Positions 28,316-63,871 of a stretch of 64,000 bases of DNA are shown here, one piece after another. Source of the DNA: Petrosia ficiformis (Eukaryota > Porifera > Demospongiae > Haplosclerida > Petrosiidae); contig OX345636.1 of NCBI GenBank assembly GCA_947044365.1, forward strand, positions 9,134,001 through 9,198,000, in the 5' to 3' direction. The notes under the pieces are model-generated. The model searched no databases, was not told the DNA's origin, and saw nothing but the letters and a program-made list of their open reading frames with translations. The position numbers were made by a program, and so were the translations under genes. Position 1 is the first letter of the stretch. Every line of letters begins with the position of its first letter.

Positions 28316-30730
28316 CTACCAGTAAGCACTATGAACTATAATTATTGCTATAGTGATTAATACTGGAGAAATCACCCCCACCACACATGCTATAATGTTG
28401 CAGAAGAGAGCTGCTTTTCTCTTCTCATGAGCCTCAGCTAGATCTCCTTGAAATTCTGCTTGTGTGGCCTGTAGGTGTTACAGTATTGTGAAATTAATGC
28501 ATGGTCTGATGTTGTATAGTTATAGTAAAGAATTGTTCATAAAACAAGCTCCAGCATAAATTAGTTACAATCATCGTTTACTGTTTGTTACTCTGAGCCT
28601 AAGTTTCTATATTGTCCATCAAATCAAATGATAATTTTTTAAAAGAGCCTTAAGAAGTCTGCAATTGTGAGTTTTAAAAATTGTCATAACAAAAGGTTTT
28701 AGAAAAGCCTGTCTTTTATTTTGATTCTTGTATAATTTTTAAGTCTGTTGGTAGTTGGATTGAGTTCCAAATGTTGTTAGTTATCCAGACATTTTGGTAA
28801 AAGACATACACAGACAGAAAACTGTAACCCTCCACTCCGGCAACATGGGCAAGAGATAATTACCATGTATACATACAGTATACTAGACAGTAAACAACTT
28901 GCTGAACACAACACCATTATCATTGATTCAAAAAATATAATTTTCTAATCCATGTTCTAGCTTACAGCAGATGCATAGATGATTGCTGGAACAGTACACA
29001 ATAGTGAGCACCAAGAACCACATAGGAAACATATTACAGTCAGGATAACAAAAAGTGTTAAAAAATTGTCACCAGATGCATGGACTGTTGTTTGGCTATA
29101 AACTGCAGTGGGTTGCTGCTGTACTATAACATTGGTTTGCTGGGAGAGAAGAAACAGAGAAAGAAATAGGTAGACAGTTAGTGACAGAGAGAGGGAGAAT
29201 AAATTATCATAATTATAAACATGAGAAAGGGCCCCTAAAATTATGTAACCATTACAAAATTATTCTTCTCCCCAATAATATGATCCTAGAAAAAGACTGA
29301 AAAAGGATTGAGTTGATACAAGTTTAGCATGGCATTGCAATAAAGTTCTATAATGTAGATGCTTCTAAATATATACATGGTATCATGCAAGACTCACTGA
29401 TTGTTGTTGCACTGGTTGGGCTTGTTGCTGTTATGGAATATGATAATGAGGAGGAGCATCACCTATGTAATTATATGAAGTACATGATAGCTCGCTGTAA
29501 AGCGTGATGTGCTATAATTCAATGAATGTACTGGTTAATATAAATTTTATGAGTTTAAAATTTTGTACATGGTAATCATGGATAGCTATTTATGTCGTCG
29601 GTATTATGTATAATTACAATCAGGGGCGCTCTACAGGAGGGGGCGGGGCAGGGCAGGCAACTGCCCTCCACAACCCCCCAGTTTTTACTTGTATGAATTT
29701 TTGTGAGTTGTTTACATACATGACATGAAGGGTGGAGTTAGTTTACACAACTATAACAACTGGTCAATTCAGTTTACGCAAACATAATTCTGCATCTAAA
29801 ATTTGGAGGCAGAAGATAATCTATTATTGCGCATAGCGCCTACATTACGTGACCACACCCCTCATGAATAATTAATAATCCAAAAAGCGCAAAGTCCGCC
29901 CTACCTTACAAAATCTCTAGACCCGCCCCTGATTACAATTACAGATTTGTGTACTTATGATAGCAGGTTACTTCATATGACGACATTCTTAGTAACTATA
30001 CCTTTTGAGATGATATTACACATGCACATGTATCTATAAAAAAACTATGCCAATTAAGAAGTCCAAATGATTTGTATTGTGCATGGCAAGTCACACTCAG
30101 CAGCCTATAATCAACTTTACATACAAATATATGAATACAGTGGAACCTCCGAAGAGGACACTCTGGCAAATTTGCTTTTGTCCTTTGTAGAGAGGTTGTC
30201 CTCTTCTTAGTGATTCTTTCTGCAGAATGTGTTTCATACATTTTTTATAACAGCAAAAGGTTTAAACACTTATAAAACTCAAAAGGTTACAAAAAAGGAA
30301 TGAACAGGATTGTACATGATTACTGGCTGCTGATAAGCCAAAAGTCTAAAGCAGTTTGTCTTGTTGCATTAATTTGTATACTGACATGAAACATCATCTG
30401 TGATAGATCCTATTTTAATGAATTCTTTTGCCTCTGCAGTGAAGAACTATTTTGTGGAATCAACTGATATTGATCATATCTGAACAACATAAATATTTAA
30501 CAGGAATGTCATATCATACCATTGTATCCATCGGATGAGTACCCTAGTTGCTGAGGAGGATAATATAGTTGTTGGGGAGGGTAACCTGGTTGGTTATATC
30601 CTGCCTGTTGAAGATGGTAGCCTGGTTGGATATATCCCGCAGGATATTGCTGTGTTAGATTTGATTGATTAGGGTATAATTGTAAGGAATAGCCAGGAGC
30701 AGATGGATACTCATTATTCTGTTTACACAT
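28316..30730 (-). CDS. CD225/dispanin (IFITM-like) membrane protein with Pro/Gln/Tyr-rich N-terminus; in-frame stop
   Basis: Exons on the minus strand: 30730-30520, 29462-29398, 29139-28966, 28468-28316 (TAG), with phases matching. The N-terminal part is rich in Tyr, Pro and Gln (YNQPGYPPQQLYYPPQQLGY). The CD225 domain has a first hydrophobic segment (GDNFLTLFVILTVICFLCGS), the conserved turn AIIYASA, the cytosolic loop QAEFQGDLAEAHEKRKAALF and a second membrane helix ending VLITIAIIIVHSAYW. Dispanins are small dual-pass proteins of plasma and endosomal membranes. In the second exon the frame runs HIP, then TAA (29431-29433), then QQQAQPVQQQS. The context suggests a Gln codon changed to a stop. 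Either the gene is dead, the allele is null, or the base is wrong. The start at 30730 is uncertain; exon 1 could instead begin at an acceptor at 30718 and follow upstream exons. Confidence 0.72.
29621..29931. mobile_element. hAT-type MITE (311 bp) with 8-bp duplication
   Basis: Begins CAGGGGCGCTCTACAGGAGG and ends CTCTAGACCCGCCCCTG, giving inverted CAGGGGCG-type ends. It is flanked on both sides by ATTACAAT (29613-29620 and 29932-29939). CAGGG-starting ends plus an 8-bp duplication are typical of hAT. It lies in the first intron of the CD225 gene and is non-coding. Confidence 0.88.
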
Positions 30731-34800: not shown

Positions 34801-37800
34801 CATATACTCACTAAACAGTACCTAGTACATGTACATGTATCTAGAATAACAATTTAGATCTGTTACATGTACATATACTCACTAAACAGTACCTAGTACA
34901 TGTATCTAGAATAACAATTTAGATCTGTTACATGTACATATACTCACTAAACAGTACCTAGTACATGTATCTAGAATAACAATTTAGACCCATTACATGT
35001 ACATGCACATGTACATGTACTTACTACACAACACCTAGTAGATCTACATGTGTCTGAATAACAGCCTTTACATGTACATGTACAGTACCTATCTATAATG
35101 TGTATATACCTTTCATTGCCAACAATTTTGGGTAATCTCTGAAGTGTACCAACATCGGCTGCCAATCCAATATCAACTTCCTACAATAAATGTGCATGTA
35201 CTGTACATATCAGACCAGGGATCATAATTATACACAGAGAATATAGGAGAGATATACATGAAAACTCATGTGCCTAGCATGCTAGCAAAAGGCGTAGAAA
35301 TAATTAACAAGCAAACACAACAAAACAAGCAACCACAGTGGCTTATAAAATTCATAAAACACAGCCCATGTACATGTACAGGTCATTCTATTTTTTTTTT
35401 GGAAGTCTCTGGGCATATACATGTAGCATATGCAGGAACAGCAATCAGTGATCTTTCTGCTACTCTTCAGCCACTCCAGCTCCCTAGCCAAGTGAGTGTA
35501 CAATTGTTCAAACTAGTCACAGAGTCCACCAGAAGCAGTCTCACAACATCTATATTTCAAATTTCCCCTGGGAATTATAAAGCAGTACATAGCCATTGTA
35601 AGTTTTTCAAACATCATATTACTTTCCCATTCAAAGTAAAGATGTAAAAATGGACAGATATTTGCGCACAATATCCTAAACCATGTACATGTATACTATA
35701 CAATCACTATATCAATATGATCAGGATAACATAATCATTACCTTAATTTGGAACCATGCATTATCAGTACACAGTCTGATATCACATGCAGTTATAAGAT
35801 CTATACCTCCACCAACACAAGGTCCTTGTATAGCAGCAATTACTGGTTTAGAACACTAGAGAGAGATGATACGTACATGTACACAACTACATGTACATAT
35901 ACATGTAGATTTAGCGGTGTACATTAATTAGTACACTGTATACATGACTAATATGTACATGTACATGTATACATGTATGTATAAAACACAACAAAATAGT
36001 ATACAGCCATATATGTGACCGCTTTATTAGGGGAAGTAAATAAACTGACTGGAATCAAGGAAGGAAGTACACATGTATAAGAAGAGGAAAAGTGGTTAAG
36101 GGTTTAATCCAGAGGGGGGCGCAGGGGGGCAAATGCCCCCCCCCCCCCCCCCAAGCATATGACACCATTACCAAACATCATTAAATTCTCATTAAATTCT
36201 ATTATATCATACAGTACTACGTAATAGGGCTGCCTCTCCTGCCCGTCTAGACTAAACCCTGTGGTTTTCAGATATGAAAAATAATAATGCATTATATACT
36301 ACATGTATTTTCATTGTTAGCCTGGAGGTGAATATGCCAAATATACTATATAAATGTAGAGGAGGCTTATGTGGATATAATCCGAGGCTATGGTTTACAT
36401 ACATGTGTACATGTAATACATGTATATACCTAACCAGATCAAACAGTTGCCATGGTAGCATAACGTACATGTACATGCATTCATATAATTATAAAAATTA
36501 CAAATTCTTTAGTACATTCATGTACATGTATTTACAAACCTTTTCAATACTAGTGAAAGACATTTGATAGGGTTTAACAACATTATCTCTTAAATAGAAA
36601 GCTTTACGAGCAACATCATTACTAGTCGCTGAAAAGAACATTTCAGCAGCGTCATTTAGATCTAGTCCTGCTGTAAATACTGATCCACTAGCACTTATAA
36701 TTACACAACGACAAGTTGTATCTTGAGATAGGTGAGTAAAACACTCCACCATTTCCCTACAAGAAAACAAAAAGGTTATATACAATGAAGGTATAATATG
36801 TGACCTAATTTTCGAAAAGGGACTTTTTTTCCCGTAAAATTATTATGATCAAACGCTTACCTTCCATCGCTCGTCATTCCACCATTTTGTACAGGAATTC
36901 AATGAAATTTGGTATCCAACAAGCTTATTATATCCCCTTCCTGGATGCCAATTTTCATTGAATTCCTGTACAAAATGGCAGAATGATGAGCGATTGAAGG
37001 TAAGCATTTGATAATCATAATTTTCCAGGAAAAGGTCCCTTTTTGATCACATATGGTATTTTTACAACGTCAGATGATAAAACTGATCAAACTATAAATA
37101 AATAATTTATTACATATTATATTATTGTGGTTGTTTTTTGTGTTTCAATGTACAGGAATTAAATCAAAATATATTAATAGACAAATGGATGGATGGATTG
37201 ATAGATGAATGGATAGATAGGTGGATGGATAGGTGAATAGATGCATTGATAGATGGAAAAATGGATGGATTGGTAGACAATTGAATAGTAAAAAGCTCAT
37301 TCAAAAAACACTGCCACACTCATGTCAAATTTGTCATTTGGTGTTTCAATATCACATGTACTACCAAATTCGGTATTACTAATCACTGTTGTTAAATGAA
37401 TGATGGAGCATATATTTATACATGTAGTATCATAGAAATTTAATATCACGGTAGCTACATAGTCATGTACATGATGTTATCGGAGATGTAGAAAGAAAGA
37501 AAGAAAGAAAGACACCTGAGGCAATGGAAAAATGAAAATGAGAGTTGCCTCAGGTGTATGTACAATTATACATGCACCACTAATATTAGGGCTTGAACAA
37601 CTATCTAATACTCATGTGGCTTAAGCAGTTAGTTGTTTAATTGATTATTATAACTACAAATATGACCATTAATTCAGTATTATGTTTGCTCAATGATGTG
37701 CGGTGATCACCTCATAACTTAATTACCAGAATGATTTGATATTACAAATCACAGAAAACATGCTATCGAAGATCTTTTAATAATAGACCATCTGCTTCTT

Positions 37801-42800: not shown

Positions 42801-45245
42801 GTACATGTACTAAACTGTATTACACGTTGCTACTATGCTATACATATACATGTAACTTACAAATGTAAAAGTAATTCACAAATTCCTATGATCACAGTAC
42901 AAAGTAGTACAATAGTACATGTACTTTTTCATGATCTCAATCTTCTTTTCCAAACTCAGTACTTTTTCTTTGGTCTTATCCAATCAGCTTGAACTAGCTA
43001 TACTCAACTAATTTTATTGTAGCTAACTAGCTACAATAAAAAATCATTACAGTTTCATGCACGTGCAAAAAATATTAATGACCCTATCTCACCATGTCTA
43101 TACAATTTTTTTTTAAAAACAATATTTTTTTTACAATTTTTGATAATACAAGCGATTTGGGGTTTGGATAACTAAGGGTCTACTGTACATTTTATAATAC
43201 TATAATTACATGTATGTACATGTAATATGAATATGGATAGTAGTACACAGGTGATAAATCACAAGGTTTTCATGAATCTCATTTATTGCACTTTAGGAGT
43301 GAGTACTGGAGGTCCTGATGATTGTGGAAGATGTGGTAAAGCTGTTTATACGGCTGAGAAAATTGTTGGAGCTGGAAAGGTATGATTATTATTCATATTA
43401 CCATTACATCATCAATTCCAATGTTGAAACATTCATTTATGGACAAATGTATTAGCAGCTTCATTGAATTGAATTTTGATTACTTACATACTTCTTCTTC
43501 ACACCTTTAATTCTCACCTTAGTGCAGACACAAAACACGTGAAATCAAAATTGCAATAAAATGGTGGTTGATAAATGTCTTGCTCTGTGTTATCAGCTTT
43601 TTAGGCTCATAGAATGCAGAATCATCTGTAAAAACACCAAAGCCGCTTGTATAAACATGATTGACAGTACATTCATGCGATTACACAAGTGGCGGGTGCA
43701 CATTGTTAAGATTACAAGTAAATGAACGAACGTTTTAGTTTTTACTATTCATTCATCTATCAATCTATCCATCTACCATCCATATATGCATATATTCATC
43801 CATCCATCCATTCAGAGTTTTTGATAAGTTTTGAAGCATGGGCCAAATTGGCTCAAAAATGGTTAGTGTGTGCGCCATTGAGAATACATCTTGAGCCAAT
43901 TAACAAAGAGCTAATGCTGTTAGTGAGAATATAATCATAACTAACTGCGCCACTGGCTCAAAGAGAGAACTGTGCAGTGCCAAATAAGAAGCTCTTTGGG
44001 CCAATGGTGTGCCATATGAGTTTATCAAAAACACTGCATCCATTGATGTTAAGCTTGGAATGAAATTTAGCCTGCTAACTTCAAATATTTATCCCATCCT
44101 TATAATGATGTAATGTATAATAATCATGATACAGTAGAAGGAGAATGTTCTTTTGTGTATACAAAGTACATACCTCTTCATATTCTTTTACCCAACAGAA
44201 TTGGCACAAACGATGTTTCTATTGTCAATCTTGTCATAAAAGTCTTGACTCCACCTCTGTGTGTGACAATGAAGGAGAAATTTACTGCAAAGGTAACCAT
44301 GTGATATACATGTATGTGTTTATTTTCTGTATTATCCAATCCAGTTGTAACAGTAGAGTAGAATATCACTCACTTGGGAAATAATAACTTTGATTAAACA
44401 CTCCCTTCAATATGAGACTGACTACATGCGAAAATCAGTCTTATTAGATTTTCAATTTTTCCAAAATGGTTGATCGTTTTTTAATTATTTTAAACAAGTT
44501 ATATAGAGAAAATGATTGCTTTGTGGTGTCCAGCAGTCAGTAATCTCAGTTGACAATAGCCTATAATAGTGATTATTTTGATTACTTAATTTCCTTACCT
44601 TTTGAAGGATCTTTCAGGTAGAATAGATTGCTATTAGTTCCAGTTTGTACGTAGCAGCTTTCGTTCGTTCTTCCTTCTTTATCTACGTATACAACGCATA
44701 CTCTCGTAAGCGGACACAAGAATATAAATATATAAATATATATATAGTTCATACCCGTGCAAAAGCAATCATAGGGATGGCCCTAAAAAACCAATAAAAC
44801 TTTCAACTCTTGAAGGCATACATGTACATGTAATTTATTATAATACCAAATGTTGCTACATGTACATGTAGCTTCTTGAACAAGATGGCTGAATAAACAA
44901 ACAGTTGATTTTAAGTGTTTGGTAAACTGGAAAATCAAATAACACTAATTTTCGTAGTCACTCTCGCATATGCTATTTAGCCATTTAGTATAGAAACTGA
45001 ACTAATGTTAGTATCCAGCAAGAGTAACTATATATATGTATTGCTTCTCCTTAACATTTAGTTAGCTTCCTGTATACAATGAATGACTGAATGCATTGGA
45101 GCAAAATTTATTATCCTAAGTGACTTTCTCATCCATGGATTATTAATAATAACATATTCACATTGCAGGTTGTTATGGTGGCAAGTTTGGTCCTAAGGGA
45201 TATGGATATGGAGGTGGTGCTGGTGCTCTAACACGTACAGAATAA
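39836..45245 (+). CDS. two-LIM-domain protein of the CRP/CSRP family, 5 exons
   Basis: Exons: 39836-39972, 40230-40327, 43297-43379, 44199-44292, 45169-45245 (TAA). They sum to 489 nt, or 162 residues, with all phases matching. LIM1 starts at Cys10 ([14 protein letters not shown]), with zinc ligands continuing through [14 protein letters not shown] to CAPCH. LIM2 starts at Cys88 ([15 protein letters not shown]), with [16 protein letters not shown] and [20 protein letters not shown]. The closing [12 protein letters not shown] is the diagnostic tail of cysteine-rich proteins, which scaffold actin regulators and transcription factors in cytoskeleton and nucleus. The linker is shorter than in vertebrate CRPs (about 193 residues), so the protein is compact. 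Intron 2 is about 3 kb and crowded with TACATGTA motifs. The gene shares its upstream region with ECH1. Confidence 0.94.
40830..41240. repeat. GT repeat and dense TACATGTA motifs in LIM-gene intron 2
   Basis: A short TG run at 40838-40854 is followed by many copies of ACATGTA/GTACATGTAC up to 41240. Confidence 0.75.
41560..41702. repeat. GTGACC family fragment
   Basis: AAATTTGGTATCTAGGAGGA, GGATACCAAATTTCATTGGC, GGACAAAATGGCTGAAGAGC, then GGTTTTCCCAAATTGGGTCAC: the right-hand arm of the foldback family with the GTGACC end. Confidence 0.6.
43910..44045. repeat. dispersed repeat, close copy at 8771-8905
   Basis: Colinear with the PUR-alpha intron 1 copy (GCTAATGCTGTTAGTGAGAA through CATATGAGTTTATCAAAAAC). 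In LIM-gene intron 3. Confidence 0.7.
44500..44800 (-). repeat. R1 repeat family, copy C (reverse, partly deleted)
   Basis: On the minus strand: GGGCCATCCCTATGATTGCT, GTGTCCGCTTACGAGAGTAT, AACTGGAACTAATAGCAA, GTGATTATTTTGATTACTTA region and CACCACAAAGCAATC. The middle segment with the GGGGGCTCGG block is missing. In LIM-gene intron 4. Confidence 0.65.
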
Positions 45246-49825: not shown

Positions 49826-50073
49826 TTGTTGAGCTATCACAATGATTCTACCACCATTCCAGTCGCATCCATAGTAAAATTCTGGTCTACAAGTATCGAG
49901 ATGATATCTTCAGATATTATGAAAGAAGACAGTCTCAACTACAGCAAAGATTTGATCTCGAACTGGACGCCATTTTCATATGCACATGATTAATTATAAA
50001 AACATGCGTATGCGCATTGTAAGATCACGAAGACGCATGTGCAAATTGTACTGTCAGCTGTCTTGGTTCTCCT

Positions 50074-51266
50074 GTGAGCTCGTGTGATTCTGAAGTTGCT
50101 ATTTCTTTCTTCAACTCACATAAGATTTCTCTCTGCGTGGTCAGAAAGGAAGTGAAGTGCCGGTTTGACCTCTCTGAGCTAAGTTTCAATAATTGTACTG
50201 ATACACACACTACTTTTATCTTACTGTTTACTTGTCTAACTATAAGCTATTTGTCTTGCATACATACACTGTCTACACTCTGGTTAAATAGTCTAAATAA
50301 CATTTATACACATACACTAGTCACAGTCTTTTATATTAACCCTTGTGTCTTTAAATCTTCTATCACCCTAAGTAAAATGATTGCCATACAACAATGGAGA
50401 ATGGCTATTGGATGTTTTCATCCATGTGGTTTTACAACAGGTTATACAAAGGATTTTGCTAATGGTAAATGTTGTTTCCATGGCAAAATGTCCTTTATTC
50501 TGGTTATCAGTATTTTAAGTCTCCTTTTAGTAATGGCTGGAGATGTTGAGCTTAACCCAGGCCCATCTAGAAAATGTCCACATTGCCAATTTGAGATTCC
50601 TATACGCAAAAAAAAATGTGAACATTGTGGTTTGCTAGTTAAATCGTTTAAATGTAATGGAAAAAAGTTAAGCCAGAATACACAGTATTATCAGAAAAAC
50701 GTTGTTAATATTTTGGCCAAAAGGGCAGAAAGCTATAGTAAGGATCCTGAAAAACAAAAAGCTTTGTCAAATCAAGCTATAGGAGTAATCCTGAAAAACA
50801 AAAAGCTTTGTCAAAATCAAACTACAGAGCTAATACAGAAAAGTTCAAAACTGCCTTTAAAATGAACTATACAAAAAATCGTGATGCTATGATTAAATCT
50901 TTTAAGACTTACTATACAGATAACATAAAAACAAAATGTGCTTATGAAAGGAACAAATATGTTCTAGCTGAGCCTAAACTGTATGTAAAAGAACAGTACT
51001 TGAAAGAAATACAGTTCAATCTGTTAGATGATTCCATTGTATGGTTGGAATTATTCAAAGCTTATAAGAAAGAGCATGTGGATTTAGCTAAAAGAATGTC
51101 AAAATGTATGAGTAAAGCAGTCTGTAAGATAGCCACCAAAAAAATACTCAATAAAACACTACAAATGCGTAAGGAGTATGTTGGGTCTCTGCTCAAAGCT
51201 ATTAGATTAATTAAACCCTCCCATCGGCCAGGCAAAAGTTCACAAAATTTTTTTCTGTACATCTAA
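50074..51266 (+). pseudogene. 2A-peptide-bearing zinc-ribbon gene with one frameshift
   Basis: The first frame runs from 50074 (the true start may be Met102 at 50377) to about 50770. It has a hydrophobic stretch, FILVISILSLLLVMAG, immediately followed by DVELNPGP at 157-164 (50542-50565), the ribosome-skipping 2A motif. Next come a CPHC/CEHC zinc ribbon (168-185) and a lysine-rich region. Repeats of about 15 residues, based on Y-x-x-(D/N)-P-E-K, straddle the break: unit 1 ends with a 3-A run (50769-50771) where unit 2 has 4 A, and the protein continues in the next frame to TAA at 51264-51266. This is a one-base deletion, a programmed shift or a sequence error. 2A motifs of this kind are known in retrotransposon and immune-receptor genes of invertebrates, where the hydrophobic leader can act as a signal peptide. 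What the protein does is unknown, and the end looks truncated. Confidence 0.7.
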
Positions 51267-54966: not shown

Positions 54967-56774
54967 CTCAATACCTTGCACTTAATAAAGTGTGCTCTAT
55001 TATTTATGCTCACATTTAAACTGTTATTGTAATGAGAACGACATTAAATCAACAGAACTAAACTTAATCTGTTCTTACAAATTCATTGGCTATTAAAATA
55101 CTGATATCAGTTTCATAAGCCAGAGATTTGTTGACAAGCAGTGATCAGTCTCATGCAAATATTTACTGTAGGGGCTCTTGCTTTCTGTGTATGCCATGTA
55201 TTTAACTTTGCCAAAAGTCTTACTTTTCATGCATACAACAGCAAATAAATGTACAATATGGAATTGACAGGAAGCCTTTTTAATTATCAAATGGGAGTAT
55301 TAATTGGCCTAAATACTTTTCAATCGATTTGATGTTAGAGCTACTCAATTTCAGAATCTCAGCCACTAACAATGAAGAATTTCAGAATAATTCAGTCATA
55401 CGCTTATAGCTATAGACACATATAGAGACTCATTGGACTGTTATAAGATGTCAATTATCCACAATTGTCGCTAGAGTGCAGTAGCACTGTGCCTTGCCAT
55501 GATACACCATTCTAATAGTCTACTTGTTTCTTTCTTTTTTTTGGAAAACAATTACGGAGAGAAAGAAGTTTCTTTTCATTTTAGAATTTATTTGGGTAAT
55601 CTCACCGCTCTTTTTCTGTACAAAATTGATTCTAAGGCTGTAACTAGTCCAAACTGGAAATAGCTATCATTAATTAGTGGGTCATCATCCTTTTGTAGAA
55701 TATTCCAAACATCTTTGAGCATTCCAATGTATATTTCCATCACAAAATTAGAATAAATCTGATTCACAAACCTTTTATACCTCGCCATATTGAATTCAAA
55801 TTACAGCAATTGGGTATTTTTTCAATGTTTGCTATAGTAGAAAACATCATTCATACAGTAGTGAATAAAGTATCACTGAACATAAATTAACATAGTACTG
55901 CCTATGTTGAATACAATTGTTATTAATCCTCACTCACAAAGGCGGAGGAGGGTTACTGTAACCATTTTGTCTGTCTGTTCAGCTATCTGCCTATTAGCAC
56001 ATTTTCTGCAAAACTATGAACATTGGCACTTCAAAAGAATTACACTATTAGACTTCAAATCATACAAGTACATAGTATTTACAGGCAGCTTTTTAATAAA
56101 AACCTTTTGGTTCAATAAAGTTATGACAATGTTTACAACTCACAGTTGCTGTTTCACAACTTCAGAAGACTTCTGGTAACCAAAAGAATGCATGGAAACA
56201 CAACTCATCTTATTAGATGCTACATTGACTGGATAGGTCTTATGCAGAGCATTATTTAGGATATGCAGGCACGAGAAAATTAGAAACAAAGTGAAAAATT
56301 CAGGAATCCAAGTAAGTAACTCATCTTGTTTGAAAGCTATCACTCTCGAAACACTGCTTAAAATCAAGCAAAGTTGAAGCTATGTCCAAATATTTCATAT
56401 ATTTTTATAAACATGATCTACATGTGAAAGTTGTTTTTGTGGAGGTCTTTCACCATGAGTGCTGTCATCTGATAATGCAGTTTGAATTGGAATACAGTAT
56501 ATGAAAATACACACAATTATAATCATCATAATTTTACGACATGCAAACTGAATGAAGTATTGTACCCTTAAAATTATCTACTACTACTGTATACTAGTAT
56601 ACTACTATTATAATTATATATTCAATTTGGGGACTTAGTTAATATGAAAAGTTAGTAGTTCAGATCTTGTAAGCAAGAGAATATAATTATAGATAAAAGG
56701 ATAGGAATTGCAGACAAAGAAATTATGAATTAAACTTAGAATTCAGCTAACACAAAAAGATTTTGTAGACCAAC
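54967..56774. other. spacer, no gene recognised
   Basis: AT-rich. A 66-codon minus-strand frame from 55788 to 55588 exists but resembles nothing I know and has no supporting context. The 3' exons of the micro-exon gene, if it ends on this side, should lie here or further left; none could be identified. Confidence 0.35.
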
Positions 56775-59700
56775 CTTTCAACTCTTGCGATTCAATTTCC
56801 CACTTTTCTATTAAAATAAATAAATAAATGCTATGAAAATAATAGCTATAATGTGCATTTATGACATAAACATATACAGTATACAAAAATATAGACTTCT
56901 GGTCACAAAAATGTAGTGTACACAGTAACTTCACTCCAACAACGTAATAACTTTTTATTAATTTGCCAAGTTTTTACTCGCTGACAGTAAGGCATTTTCA
57001 TTTTTAGTTAACTAAACTATTACAGGTCTACTGTAATAATTATAGCTGAAAATGTGCCTATAATGGGGACGTATAGTTAGTAAAGGTAAAACTAAAATAA
57101 GCCCATTGATATTATGATAATTAAACTACAACTAAGCTAAAACTTTGAGAAACTAGTCGTACTATAAACTAAAACAACACTAAATGTAATGCACACTGAA
57201 CACAATACCCATTATAAAGTTCTCATGCATTTGTATAGCAACGTATAAAATTGTCTTACAAAAGTTTATTTGTTTTATTTGTGGATCAGTCATTGTATAC
57301 AAGGATGTTGCATCATTTTGGAGAGTTAATCAAGTTAAAGGAATACTTTTTCTCCATAAATTGTGTGAACTAGTATGTCATTATATCCTTTTATATAATT
57401 CCCTTTGATGTTAAACCTCTAATGAGGGATATATATATGAAAAAATTAATCTCAGATCATAGTATGAACTGGGATTTATTTTGTATAGTGGAAACCACAA
57501 ACAAGTCTTAGACGACCTAAATTTTGTGCAGTGTCATTGTGGGTTCACTTCCTGAAGACAGTAATTCAGTTATGAAGATATTTTGAATGTTGTGACACAG
57601 CAGATTCAACTATGAACACAATTTAAATACAATGACGCAGCAAAATTATCTATGAATATGGTTTATAATGGTTATACACCTATTTCATGCTATTTAGCAT
57701 CCTTTGGGCTTCACCCTAGGGATCTATATAGCATGAATCCCTCCAAGTAGGTGTGTAACCTATATTGATTATGTGCCAACATAGATATACTAGCTTGCCA
57801 AATGATGATTTTCTCTGTGGAAATACTGTATACCTGGGGGTAGATTAATTGTCCCATCTTCACATCATATAGTTGTGGTTAGAGTTAATTTAATTGGCAA
57901 ATTGTTTTCAACTCCACATTTAACAAAATTCAACACTTTCCAAAGAAACTCACTATAAGATTTAATGTTTTATTATATCGTTATCATGAAAGACTTCTAT
58001 CAAATCTGCTATTAATAAAAATATGATTACTGAAATTGTAGACAATGCAATTTGTAACTAATATGAAGACAAGACTTCAGAAGGAAGCAAAACATCCTAC
58101 CATTAAAATTAATTATTTGGTTATTTTATCGAAAAGCTACCTAAATTTGGCATGTATGAGAAGTAAAACGGGACCTGTATTTTGGATATTGAAGTTATGA
58201 AAAATTACATATTTATAATGGCCGATTGCAAATAGCAAATATCAGTCAAAATTATTTTGTGCAACAAGTCTGGTATATTATATACACACATTGAGCTCTA
58301 TTAATTCAACCAACCTCTCAGTTGCTGCAATTCAGAATCATAATCGTCTGGAGGTAGAGAAAGACCAATAATAATTTATTTATGATTTATTACTACTTGT
58401 TACTACATGGCAATAAGAACTACAAGACTTAGTGCATGCAATTTGACTACAAAATGTAACCCTATAAAACTTATGAAAACCATGCATCCTTGCAGTCTGA
58501 CATTCAAAACACATCATGAGCTCCATTGATTTCACCAACCTGTTAGTAGCTGCAATTTAGCATCATAATAGTCTATAGATAGAAAAACAGAAACTAAACT
58601 GAAAATAAAATTAAGATCATGTATAAATATTGTGCCTAAAACTTTAACATTCAATATTTGTGTGGAAACATTGATCCAACCGCCAGACATTTTGACCTAT
58701 TTTCATCACTCTTGTCCTGCTCCCCATACATGTACACTACTTCATTTTACATGATGGTCAACAGGGATAGAATCTATACATGTCTGCATGGTATATATAC
58801 ACACATTGAGTTCTATTAACTCCACCAACCTCTAAGTCGCTGCAATTTAGAATCATAATCATCTGGAGGTAAAGAAATAGAAATTAAACTGAAAATAAAA
58901 TTACGATCATAACTTAACATGCACTAATAATAATTTATTTATGATTTATTACTACTTGCTACTACATGGCAATAAAAACTACAAGAACACTTAGTGCATG
59001 CAATTTGACTTCAAATTGTCACCCTATAAAACTTATGAATATCATGCATCCTTGCAGTCTGACATTCAAAACACATCATGAGCTCCATTGACTTCACCAA
59101 CCTGTTATTTGCTTCAATTCATCATAATTGTCTATAGATAGAAAAACAAATACTAAACCGAAAATTAATTTAAGATCATATTTAAATATTGCGCCTAAAA
59201 CTTTAAATTCAATATTTGTGTGGAAACATTGAACCAATACTACTTGCTACTACATGGCAATAAAAACTACAAGAAGACTTAGTGCATGCAATTTGACTTC
59301 AAATTGTCACCCTATAAAACTTATGAATATCATGCATCCTTGCAGTCTGACATTCAAAACACATCATGAGCTCCATTGACTTCACCAACCTGTTATTTGC
59401 TTCAATTCATCATAATTGACTATAGATAGAAAAACAAATACTAAACTGAAAATTAAATTAAGATCATATTTAAATATTGCGCCTAAAACTTTAACATTCA
59501 ATATTTGTGTGGAAACATTGATCCAACTGGCAGACATTTTGACCTATTTTCATCACTCTTGTCCTGCTCCCCATACATGTACACTACTTCATTTTACATG
59601 ATGGTCAACAGGGATAGACAAGTCTGCATGGTATATATATACACACATTGAGCTCTATTAACTCCACCAACCTCTAAGTCGCTGCAATTTAGAATCATAA

Positions 59701-60258
59701 TCATCTGGAGGTAAAGAAATAGAAATTAAACTGAAAATAAAATTACGATCATAACTTAACATGCACTAATAATAATTTATTTATGATTTATTACTACTTG
59801 CTACTACATGGCAATAAAAACTACAAGAACACTTAGTGCATGCAATTTGACTTCAAATTGTCACCCTATAAAACTTATGAATATCATGCATCCTTGCAGT
59901 CTGACATTCAAAACACATCATGAGCTCCATTGACTTCACCAACCTGTTATTTGCTTCAATTCATCATAATTGACTATAGATAGAAAAACAAATACTAAAC
60001 TGAAAATTAAATTAAGATCATATTTAAATATTGCGCCTAAAACTTTAACATTCAATATTTGTGTGGAAACATTGAACCAACTGGCAGACATTTTGACCTA
60101 TTTTCATCACTCTTGTCCTGCTCCCCATACATGTACACTACTTCATTTTACATGATGGTCAACAGGGATAGACAAGTCTGCATGGTATATATATACACAC
60201 ATTGAGCTCTATTAACTCCACCAACCTCTAAGTTGCTGCAATTTAGAATCATAATCAT
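56775..60258 (-). CDS. tandem array of nine 30-33-nt phase-1 micro-exons (partial gene)
   Basis: On the minus strand, in transcription order: 60258-60226, 59973-59944, 59704-59672, 59419-59390, 59131-59102, 58862-58830, 58572-58540, 58347-58315, 56807-56775. Each follows an acceptor (such as TTTCTTTACCTCCAG or TTTTTCTATCTATAG) and ends in AG before GTTGGT. Each has 2+30+1 nt (or 2+27+1), so any number can be joined or skipped without changing frame. Type a encodes DYDSKLQQLR preceded by Asp; type b encodes NYDELKQIT; the last is EKWEIESQELK. An 11-residue period with Leu/Ile spacing fits a hendecad coiled coil. Eight exons are spaced at about 280 bp, arranged as a-b dimers repeated at 554 bp. 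The 5' end is cut off by a repeat relic at 60.4-60.6 kb, and the 3' end was not found. No protein family is recognised; splicing is predicted, not shown. Confidence 0.55.
57288..57345 (+). repeat. R1 repeat family, short worn relic
   Basis: TTGTATACAAGGATGTTGCA, TCATTTTGGAGAGTTAATCA follows the R1 stretch TTGTATACGTAGTTAAGGAA, GTTGCGTCATTCCCGGGGGC. It lies in the long gap between the last two micro-exons. Confidence 0.4.
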
Positions 60259-60896: not shown

Positions 60897-60950
60897 TGCA
60901 GGTGTAAGCCACGCCTACAACAATGAACAAATCGTCTGTTTTAATCCCGC

Positions 60951-61985
60951 ATGTGTACTCGTTTGCAGGCAATGGAGAGGTTTTCACTCAACTCCTGTGT
61001 TCGTGGACATCATGTCTACAAAAATGTGTGGACACCACAAATTGGTGAAACGCTGTTGTGTCAGCCAGAATTTGGGAACGTTATGGATCCATATGCAGTT
61101 GCCATCATAACTGGAGATGAAGTAATCGTCGGCCATGTTCCCAGGAAAATCTCTGCCATGTGTCACCTTTTCCTGAGGCGCGGTGGGCACATAGCATGCC
61201 AAGTAACTGGTCATAGGCAATTTTCAGCAGATTTGACTCAAGGAGGTCTTGAAGTACCATGTTCTCTGGTGTTTGTTGGAGCAGAGAAGGAAATTTGCAA
61301 AGTCAAAAGGTTGAGCAGTGCTGCCTCGGATATAACCATAGCCGTAGAGCCACCAGAAAAAAAGGCTAAAACAAGTAATCAAAGGTCAGCTGCTGCCATT
61401 GATATTTCAGAGCAGTATGATAGGTGTAAAGCATCATCTGAGTCAAGTGTTTGGATAAAAGTTGATGGTCATTTGCTGACATTATCGGATGAAAAGGATT
61501 TACTTAACAACAAAAAGTTGAATGATCGTCACATCAATTTGGCTCAAAGATTATTGAGTAAACAGTTCCCTGATATTGAGGGATTAGGCCACACTCTTTT
61601 TCAGAGCAAACCACCAATTAAAAGCATATCAAATGGTCTACAAATTGTTTTTGATCGAGAGAATCACTGGATTGTAGCCAGTAGCCTATCTTGTGATAGC
61701 CACACTATACAGGTTTATGACTCACTATATCCCATGGTCAATGAAGCTTCAAAAAAAGTAATGCTCAATTTATTCGAAGGGAGTAGAAGAAAAATTGTTC
61801 AAGTGAATGTGCAAAAGCAACTAGGTGGACAGGACTGCGGCCTGTTTGCTATTGGTATATCAACGGCCTTGCTTAATAACATTGATGTAACAACAATCCA
61901 ATTTAATCAGCATGAAATGAGACACCATCTACATGACTGTTTCAATGCTGGACTAATATCTCCATTTCCATCAAGAAAAGTCTAA
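60951..61985 (+). CDS. HIRAN domain plus ULP1-like cysteine protease, single exon
   Basis: One open frame of 344 residues; Met8 (60972) is an equally good start. Residues about 15-110 form a HIRAN domain (GHHVYKNVWTPQIGETLLCQ, DPYAVAIITGDEVIVGHVPR, FLRRGGHIACQVTG), a module that binds 3' single-strand DNA ends in HLTF/Rad5. A Lys-rich linker (EPPEKKAKT) resembles a nuclear signal. Residues about 180-325 match the C48/ULP1 peptidase fold: His in ENHWIVAS, Asp in QVYDSLYP, Gln and Cys in QKQLGGQDCGLFAIG, so the catalytic set appears complete. Such fusions occur in multicopy, intronless genes of cnidarians and sponges and are probably transposon-encoded; ULP1 modules travel with several DNA transposon groups. 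A pogo-type DDE fragment lies 200 bp downstream in the opposite orientation. Substrate (SUMO-like or other) unknown. Confidence 0.85.
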   Translation: MCTRLQAMERFSLNSCVRGHHVYKNVWTPQIGETLLCQPEFGNVMDPYAVAIITGDEVIVGHVPRKISAMCHLFLRRGGHIACQVTGHRQFSADLTQGGLEVPCSLVFVGAEKEICKVKRLSSAASDITIAVEPPEKKAKTSNQRSAAAIDISEQYDRCKASSESSVWIKVDGHLLTLSDEKDLLNNKKLNDRHINLAQRLLSKQFPDIEGLGHTLFQSKPPIKSISNGLQIVFDRENHWIVASSLSCDSHTIQVYDSLYPMVNEASKKVMLNLFEGSRRKIVQVNVQKQLGGQDCGLFAIGISTALLNNIDVTTIQFNQHEMRHHLHDCFNAGLISPFPSRKV

Positions 61986-62689: not shown

Positions 62690-63029
62690 CCTCCCCCTCT
62701 TCACCGCCATGAGGACGGATGGGGAGATCCCCTTTGGTAATCATGTGAGGGCTCCTTCCTCGAACTAAGACCACACCCATCCACCGCAGTCGCATGGAGT
62801 CTTATAGGTGATAATGGGTGTGGTTTCATGGGGAAGTCACGGGTTACCGAACCCCCGCCTAAACTAGCACACCCAGGTGTGCACCTACTTCCCCAAAAGG
62901 AACCCAAACATTAATTACCTACCCCTCTCCATGCAATTACTTCATACAGTATTATAGTTGCACAGTAAAGTATGCATTAAACAAATCAACCTACTACCAC
63001 ACAATTGCAATGTCGAAATTAAAATTAAG
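62690..63029. other. GC-richer flank of the tyrosine recombinase copy
   Basis: Less AT-rich than the rest, with inverted ACCACACCCAT and ATGGGTGTGGT (62769-62831). Position and composition suggest the non-coding 3' part of the element that carried the recombinase. No gene recognised. Confidence 0.35.
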
Positions 63030-63829
63030 TTAAATGTTCCCAACCAGTACTGATGACAGTGTTGCCAGGTCTTGTCTTGGAGTCCTGATGAATCTGGCAT
63101 ATGCAGATGACTGCCATCGACCCAGCATTTGGATAGTGGACTCTGGGCTGCTGTTTGGCTGCCCCAATGCGAAAACTGTGCCCAGCATAATTTGATGAGT
63201 CCAAGCCCATTTGCGACAGTGCCTCCCGGACTACTACCACCAATCTACCCCTAGTCAGAGGTGACCCATCCTGATACAAAAATAGAGGTCCCTGCTCCCT
63301 GGAACGAACCGCCAAGTAGGCTGCCATCGATTTCACTGGACACACTATGTCACGAGTTATGCCAAGATAAAGAGTGACCCCCAAACGGAATGGATCAGTC
63401 TTGCTCTGACAGATCCGCACCGACACAACTGTCGGGCGTTGAATCGAGTCTAGTGCTATGTCTGACAGTAACAGAGGTGCTGGGTTACGCACCGATGAGC
63501 CTGATGCTGAGTGGACCGTGAATTCACCAGAGCGCAGAAATCCGAAGAAGCCCAGACAGCAAGCTGCCCACAACATTTGATAGTCTGGATTCTGTTCTCT
63601 TGACCACAATGCGTGGAAACTACGTAAAATAGTGGGGGTAATTGGCAGTCGGGGTCTGGTTGGAACTGTTTGGGAGGCACGACGAATCCCCTTCAGGACA
63701 TATTCTAGTCTGGGGAATGTCCCAGGGCCAAAGGGGTCTTGGAAACCCGCACTAATCTGCAGGTGGCGGATAGCCGACACGTGGGACTTGATTGATTGGT
63801 ACTTCAGGGATTGCAAGGATAAAAATCCT
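63030..63829 (-). pseudogene. tyrosine recombinase (XerD/DIRS-like) with frameshift
   Basis: The minus-strand frame contains the N-terminal core-binding helix (SIKSHVSAIRHLQISAGF), the catalytic domain with Arg I (GFFGFLRSGEFT), the beta-strand Lys region (VRICQSKTDPFRLG) and the HxxR box (AGHSFRIGAA). After GAA the frame shifts near 63150-63165. The alternative frame then gives STIQMLGRWQSSAYARFIRT, with the conserved Trp/Tyr region, and ends at TAA (63030). A short deletion therefore separates the HxxR box from the nucleophilic Tyr, and the copy is dead as read. Recombinases of this type belong to DIRS-like retroelements or Crypton-like elements; no reverse transcriptase is seen here to decide between them. 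Its 5' side abuts a 42-bp palindrome. Confidence 0.8.
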
Positions 63830-63871
63830 CTCTCCTTTGTGGCGTTGATGCATCAACGCCACAAAGGAGAG
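63830..63871. repeat. perfect 42-bp palindrome at a gene-fragment junction
   Basis: Positions 63830-63850 (CTCTCCTTTGTGGCGTTGATG, wording split here as CTCTCCTTTGTGG and CGTTGATG) are exactly inverted at 63851-63871 with no loop. The left arm reads as the start of the recombinase frame and the right arm as part of the HECT-like frame, both on the minus strand. Confidence 0.95.

Follow-up and report, generated by a model that had tools for sequence, protein, structure and literature searches.

A tandem array of micro-exons and its predicted TRAF-like host gene in the sponge Petrosia ficiformis

The micro-exon array and its nested duplications

The window analyzed here is a stretch of 64,000 nucleotides from chromosome 1 (C1) of Petrosia ficiformis (contig OX345636.1, positions 9,134,001 to 9,198,000). 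Nine short segments had been annotated as micro-exons on its minus strand, and all nine were recovered at the same positions, each with an AG acceptor, an open phase-1 frame and a GTTGGT donor. In the order of transcription these are W1 (60226..60258; a type, 33 nt, DDYDSKLQQLR, with phase 1-1 borders), W2 (59944..59973; b type, 30 nt, VNYDELKQIT), W3 (59672..59704; a type, 33 nt, DDYDSKLQRLR), W4 (59390..59419; b type, 30 nt, VNYDELKQIT), W5 (59102..59131; b type, 30 nt, DNYDELKQIT), W6 (58830..58862; a type, 33 nt, DDYDSKLQRLR), W7 (58540..58572; b type, 33 nt, DYYDAKLQLLT), W8 (58315..58347; a type, 33 nt, DDYDSELQQLR) and W9 (56775..56807; outer type, 33 nt, EKWEIESQELK, for which the equivalent in a paralogous gene, D, reads EQWETELQELK). 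The lengths thus run 33-30-33-30-30-33-33-33-33 nt. The core, W1 to W8, has the type order a b a b b a b a, where the type sequences are DDYDSKLQQLR for a and DNYDAKLQQLT for b, with one codon missing in three of the b copies. Under a strict definition (30 or 33 nt, a final base G and a pyrimidine fraction of at least 0.7), nine segments were counted on the minus strand of the window, against a mean of 0.0 per strand when a first-order Markov chain was used to simulate 60 strands of 64 kb. GTTGGT is a poor fit to the usual donor consensus, and this counts against the proposed splicing.

The eight core exons had been said to lie about 280 bp apart. This holds for six of the steps (285, 269, 285, 288, 269 and 290 bp) and fails for the last, which is 225 bp; the 554-bp offset is borne out for W1–W3 and W2–W4. 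The a and b units are 74–82% identical across about 112 columns. The largest repeat unit, absent from the first-pass annotation, is a tandem duplication at 58391..60080 on the minus strand, in which a block of about 850 bp with three micro-exons occurs twice; the two blocks, 59238–60080 and 58391–59237, are 95.1% identical over 853 columns. Repeated amplification of the cassette, as originally proposed, is therefore seen as nested tandem duplication that includes the level of about 850 bp. W9 starts 1540 bp past W8, outside the recognizable duplication, and keeps the same border and phase rules; it is an older relative of the core exons, with flanks no longer alignable to theirs. Two dispersed sequences lie within the array: a 69-bp repeat at 58660–58728, inside the array unit, has many copies elsewhere, up to 97% identical, on other contigs, and 57395–57765, in the intron between W8 and W9, is part of a dispersed element that recurs, in tens of matches, across many contigs.

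The predicted TRAF-like host gene and its neighbors

The predicted host gene of the array, a TRAF-like gene here called A, is located upstream and had not been recognized in the first-pass annotation. A scan of codon usage, for which 28 kinase-bearing open-reading frames of the genome served as the training set, revealed its TRAF-like exons on the strand of the array. Exon 1 (9205680–9205859, equivalent to window positions 71680–71859, minus strand) is open and encodes the RING-like half, and exon 2 (9202884–9203694, equivalent to 68884–69694, minus strand) is likewise open and encodes the ring remainder, cysteine-rich putative TRAF-type zinc fingers, a long coiled coil and a transmembrane helix. 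Both exons lie 8.6–11.6 kb upstream of the array, past the right edge of the window. Exon 2 ends LK|G in phase 1, which is the phase of the array, and when it is joined to the nine micro-exons the frame is unbroken throughout. In this gene model, the micro-exons supply 96 of the 448 residues, that is, not most of the coding region.

The zinc fingers of exon 2 matched TRAF6 (chain 5vo0_A; E-value = 5.7e-5), the only match below 0.1 among the five listed. The RING-like region matched zf-RING_6 at 22.7 bits (below the cut-off of 35), and DUF1759 matched over the rod at a sub-threshold 18.1 bits (cut-off 25.4); at E-values up to 0.1, the gene A model had no match to Pfam zf-TRAF. In the AlphaFold model of exon 2, residues 100–269 form one unbroken helix that runs into and through the membrane segment, with block pLDDT values of 79–93 from residue 101 on, as expected of a coiled coil following the fingers. 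Residues 1–97 have a pLDDT below 50, with an underlying alignment of 10 sequences, and a Foldseek search with this model gave no match at an E-value of 10 or less. The predicted protein starts with the RING-like exon and, by hydropathy, has its strongest hydrophobic stretch internally, from residue 311, and shows no signal peptide. Eight proteins matched the gene A model at E-values up to 0.001; because all of them are single-exon open-reading frames over exon 2, they carry no evidence on splicing. Another ENA record contains, in a contig of 5.37 Mb, an open-reading frame 97% identical to exon 2.

For copy searches, 200 kb of chromosome 1 was assembled from the window and further stretches. 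In these 200 kb, tblastn found zinc-finger exons starting at 9203670, 9211712, 9255060, 9270688, 9288961, 9292781 and 9300386, and two MATH exons, at 9291453 and 9299241. The MATH (TRAF-C) domain is carried by neighboring genes E and F. The tandem paralogue D (9281774–9290770) has the same plan as A, with six micro-exons, and is in frame from exon 1 through all six. Gene F has similar first exons without such a micro-exon; its MATH exon is in phase 1 and is followed by a second hydrophobic stretch. Because gene F joins its MATH domain there in the same phase, the array occupies the slot between the membrane helix and the MATH domain. Gene F itself (C1:9298663–9301708) is predicted to have a RING, fingers, a coiled coil, a membrane helix, a MATH domain and a second hydrophobic helix, so that its MATH domain possibly lies outside the membrane, between two anchors. 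In the genome at large, MATH exons form large clusters in C1 at about 6.1–9.6 Mb, as do single long open-reading frames with both zf-TRAF and MATH in C13 at about 4.78–5.17 Mb (counts in both regions are lower bounds, from the best 150 candidates scored).

From exon 2 to W1 the gene A model needs an intron of 8.6 kb, and this contains open-reading frames that are transposon-like by eye, a point against the model; among them are a long one at 63025–63852 (minus strand) resembling a tyrosine recombinase and another at 60945–61985 (plus strand) resembling an Ulp1-like transposon protease. At about 35745–35858 on the minus strand of the window there is a match to enoyl-CoA hydratase (PF00378; E-value = 3e-15), which is probably an exon of another gene. 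On the plus strand, an open-reading frame at 44130–44300, in a block common to the tandem paralogue, has by eye the look of what we take to be a LIM domain exon, and another at 50023–50865 bears what is presumably a 2A-like motif, GDVELNPGP, followed by a lysine-rich region; the latter has a relative near 9238.8 kb.

No MATH exon was found downstream of the A and D arrays by tblastn and Pfam in the parts scanned. In the window, tblastn gave no MATH match at an E-value of 1 or less, and when the two MATH exons of the cluster were searched against the 200 kb they found only themselves and one 28-residue match (E-value = 0.35). The Pfam scan, which excludes window positions 1–30000 and 9270.7–9274.0 kb, found no MATH in the minus frames of window positions 30001–64000 or of one further stretch (L009); weak matches in the scanned frames were DDE_1 (E-value = 0.044) and Phage_T7_55 (E-value = 0.057), both under the cut-off. 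Gene A is not a full TRAF, since no MATH domain was found for it in the parts scanned.

A weak candidate for the terminal exon was recognized at 55764..55831 on the minus strand, where a phase-1 acceptor is followed by ANIEKIPNCCNLNSIWRGIKGL and then TGA. Its acceptor lies 0.94 kb past W9. The candidate exon is identical in paralogue D, and in an inverted copy, G, the sequence is open, reads ANIEKIHNCCKFESIWGIIEGL and has its stop at the corresponding place. Genome-wide, the candidate exists in only three places (A, D and G). The flanks are about as conserved as the candidate itself, and we therefore put it at even odds that this is the terminal exon of gene A. Two other open-reading frames were considered and rejected: a signal-peptide-like one at 56395–56577 as a first exon, since a 2-base insertion in copy 3 breaks its frame and its acceptor is in phase 0 only, and one at 56143–56379 as a last exon, since its acceptor would require phase 2.

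Copies of the cassette and their coding constraint

A scan requiring AG, GT and an open frame found 19 copies of the micro-exon in the 200 kb, and a looser scan added a twentieth. Because such scans select intact copies, a profile of exon plus donor was built from those 20 to offset this bias; it recognized 21 copies at E-values below 1e-4, of which 20 have both splice dinucleotides and the frame. The sole exception (9226079–9226118) has lost its acceptor. The copy at 9259685 ends in A instead of G, and a GTTAGT donor is present in two of the 20 copies. In all 15 copies of A and D, frame and borders are intact. Two indel events were seen among the exon copies (-3 and +6 nt), and both are multiples of three. 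The search of the whole genome for further cassettes, suggested at the outset, covered 191,215,263 bases in 29 contigs and found 13 places with up to three mismatches, all within C1:9.19–9.29 Mb, against 0 for the reversed control (the pattern is by design blind to 30-nt and outer copies). Among 5.8 billion proteins, the joined unit peptides gave 654 candidates, none of them at an E-value of 0.01 or less.

The exon order in A is a, b, a, b, b, a, b, a, outer, and that in D is outer, b, a, b, a, outer. Because these orders differ, the core of A probably grew after or around the split of A and D, and the copy number of the exons may vary between individuals.

The micro-exon pN/pS was 0.26 in the a type, 1.12 in the b type, 0.64 between outer and core exons and 0.75 over all pairs of the 20 copies, so the codon substitution check that had been called for points to constraint in the a type and to none in the b type. 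Four copies from the outer and core classes (W9, D1, W8 and D4) differ by 0.40 in the exon, 0.52 in the near upstream flank, 0.56 in the near downstream flank and 0 in the donor hexamer, the near-flank comparison being ungapped and flank divergence thus inflated; near flanks were used since a comparison over 110 bp is confounded by non-homologous flanks. Differences among these four copies are most frequent at the third codon position (0.53; 0.29 and 0.38 at the other two). A third-position bias is also present in the a-type exons and absent from the five 33-nt b copies, which differ by 0.18 in the exon and 0.21 upstream. Between A and D, which are recent tandem duplicates, exon divergence is about equal to intron divergence; nonsynonymous changes make up six of the eight differences in the clear pairs (W9–D6, W8–D5 and W7–D4) and eight of the nine in the pairs of uncertain correspondence (W6–D3 and W5–D2). 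Divergence of the exons at the rate of the surrounding repeat, which the first-pass annotation named as one part of what would refute it, is seen for A versus D and for the b type, and is not seen for the a type and the outer exons. In a rough neutral simulation on the 20-copy tree, the probability that all copies remain open was 0.016, which is only supportive because the copies had been chosen for openness.

A non-coding repeat that merely resembles exons would suit the location of the array in a recently duplicated region and the 69-bp dispersed repeat inside its unit. Such a repeat is very improbable: simulated strands yielded no comparable segments on average, both indels preserve the frame, the outer copies keep exon and donor better than their flanks, and the phase agrees with that of the upstream exon. 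Taken with the intact borders and frame in 20 of the 21 copies and the third-position bias shown by a-type exons and by outer versus core exons, the segments behave as coding micro-exons. There is good evidence for a coding past of the micro-exons, and weaker evidence for present constraint on every copy.

Another alternative is that of a decaying remnant, in which TRAF-like genes have lost their MATH exon and the micro-exons, once coding, now drift and multiply as an unstable repeat. Such decay would account for the missing MATH after A and D in the parts scanned, the in-frame stop in exon 2 of A2, the broken frame in exon 2 of I, the acceptor lost in H, the inversion of G and the b-type exons without constraint. 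We consider it unlikely, though clearly less so than a non-coding repeat, because exons 1 and 2 are open in both A and D, exon 2 of A is constrained relative to that of H (dN/dS about 0.35), a 97%-identical frame exists in another ENA record, the a-type pN/pS is 0.26, and 15 of the 15 copies in A and D retain frame and borders.

A predicted rod built of hendecad units

The hydrophobic pattern was analyzed in 16 eleven-residue units of the 20, excluding three of 10 residues and one of 13. A hydrophobic residue occupies each of positions 3, 7 and 10 in 15 of the 16 units, and each of the other positions in 0–2; the resulting 4-3-4 spacing is that of a hendecad. For periodicity, seven residues from the start of the candidate terminal exon were included in the rods of A and D. 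D, in which all units have 11 residues, peaks at 98.4 degrees, close to the hendecad value of 98.18, for which none of 2000 shuffles reached the same strength (p = 0.39 for the heptad), whereas A, a mixture of 11 and 10 residues, peaks at 102.0 degrees, near the heptad value of 102.86 (p = 0.0005; hendecad p = 0.021). An exon pair of 33 + 30 nt gives 11 + 10 = 21 residues, or three heptads. As 33 nt make one hendecad and 33 + 30 nt three heptads, the units add in register, and each 33-nt exon reads as one structural unit in which the deletion of one codon would still leave a regular seam. The coiled-coil rod of the first-pass annotation is a good fit to both spacing and periodicity; that splicing adds or drops units is a prediction. 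Charges before and after the membrane helix are +3 and 0 in A and +1 and -4 in D, a bias which suggests that the RING and fingers lie inside and the rod outside.

We put at roughly two in three the probability that the array belongs to the TRAF-like transmembrane gene A and encodes the part outside the membrane, with each exon being one rod unit under the predicted splicing. Exon 1 and then exon 2 would supply the RING-like region, the TRAF-type zinc fingers, the coiled coil and the transmembrane helix; the nine micro-exons would each append one helical unit of 10 or 11 residues beyond the membrane helix; and the frame may end in a short terminal exon. Since a 33-nt exon would correspond to a hendecad, or three helix turns, duplication, loss or skipping of exons would leave the hydrophobic seam in register. 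The sequence itself shows the phases, the borders, the amplification, the paralogues and the conserved hydrophobic positions; the splicing of all nine exons, the topology, the terminal exon and the use of length variation are inferred from it.

The first-pass annotation knew of no named family built in this way, which overlooks the micro-exon genes (MEGs) of schistosomes. These contain very small symmetric exons in runs, which can be skipped without a change of frame, and have a high dN/dS; their products are said to have a signal peptide, and their coding region is mostly micro-exons (PMC4350168, PMC4015677); MEGs are apparently restricted to platyhelminths (PMC4350168), while micro-exon genes are also said to occur in other organisms (PMC4015677). 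The array, with nine exons of 30 or 33 nt in phase 1-1, shares with them small symmetric exons that are multiples of three. It differs in that the sponge host gene has a RING-like exon, zinc fingers and a membrane helix and draws only the minor part of its residues, given above, from micro-exons; the units are near-identical copies, no signal peptide is seen by hydropathy, and the host is not a flatworm. Gene A thus resembles MEGs in exon design and is not one of them with respect to signal peptide, micro-exon majority and flatworm host.

This situation also differs from that of the TRAF family, with which gene A shares the coiled coil and, putatively, the RING-like exon and the TRAF6-like zinc fingers, in that a transmembrane helix follows the coiled coil and no MATH was found. 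Davis et al. (1988) reportedly described exons of Schistosoma mansoni that are repeated in tandem and encode 81-base repeats; like the array, these would be head-to-tail repeats encoding a repeated peptide, with a unit that is, by the title, 81 bases instead of 30–33. Among the literature matches listed on sponge TRAF expansions, membrane TRAF proteins, Petrosia TRAF and one-exon-one-hendecad designs, none was recognized as on point.

Tandem duplicated exons are also reported to be spliced in a mutually exclusive manner (PMC9741552). Such exons share with the array neighboring copies of equal phase, and differ in that one copy replaces another, whereas the units of the array would add length. 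If the array were used alternatively, with one or a few micro-exons per mRNA chosen exclusively or stochastically, it would serve variety and not length. The common phase and donor, the short introns and the existence of two types are compatible with such use, which we hold to be improbable, as copies within a type are near-identical, so that little variety would be gained, and as the hydrophobic seam runs across neighboring units, favoring their serial inclusion.

On the preferred reading of serial inclusion, gene A would encode a TRAF-like ligase that is anchored in the membrane, carries a rod of adjustable length on the outside and serves perhaps as a sensor or adhesion stalk. By the rise of the helix, a hendecad measures about 1.65 nm. 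A more tentative idea, rather unlikely at present, is that the array acts as a genomic ruler, in which the copy number and splicing of hendecad exons set the length of the outside rod in steps of about 1.65 nm with the hydrophobic seam intact, and the codon loss in b exons, having reduced the pair from 22 to 21 residues and spread in A, shifts the winding from the hendecad towards the heptad.

If the exons are spliced as predicted, a rod would owe its length to the number of exons counted, the size of each exon fitting the geometry of the helix, and this would occur in an early-branching animal, within a TRAF-like family that has large clusters in the P. ficiformis genome. It would likewise place a micro-exon array beyond the flatworms.
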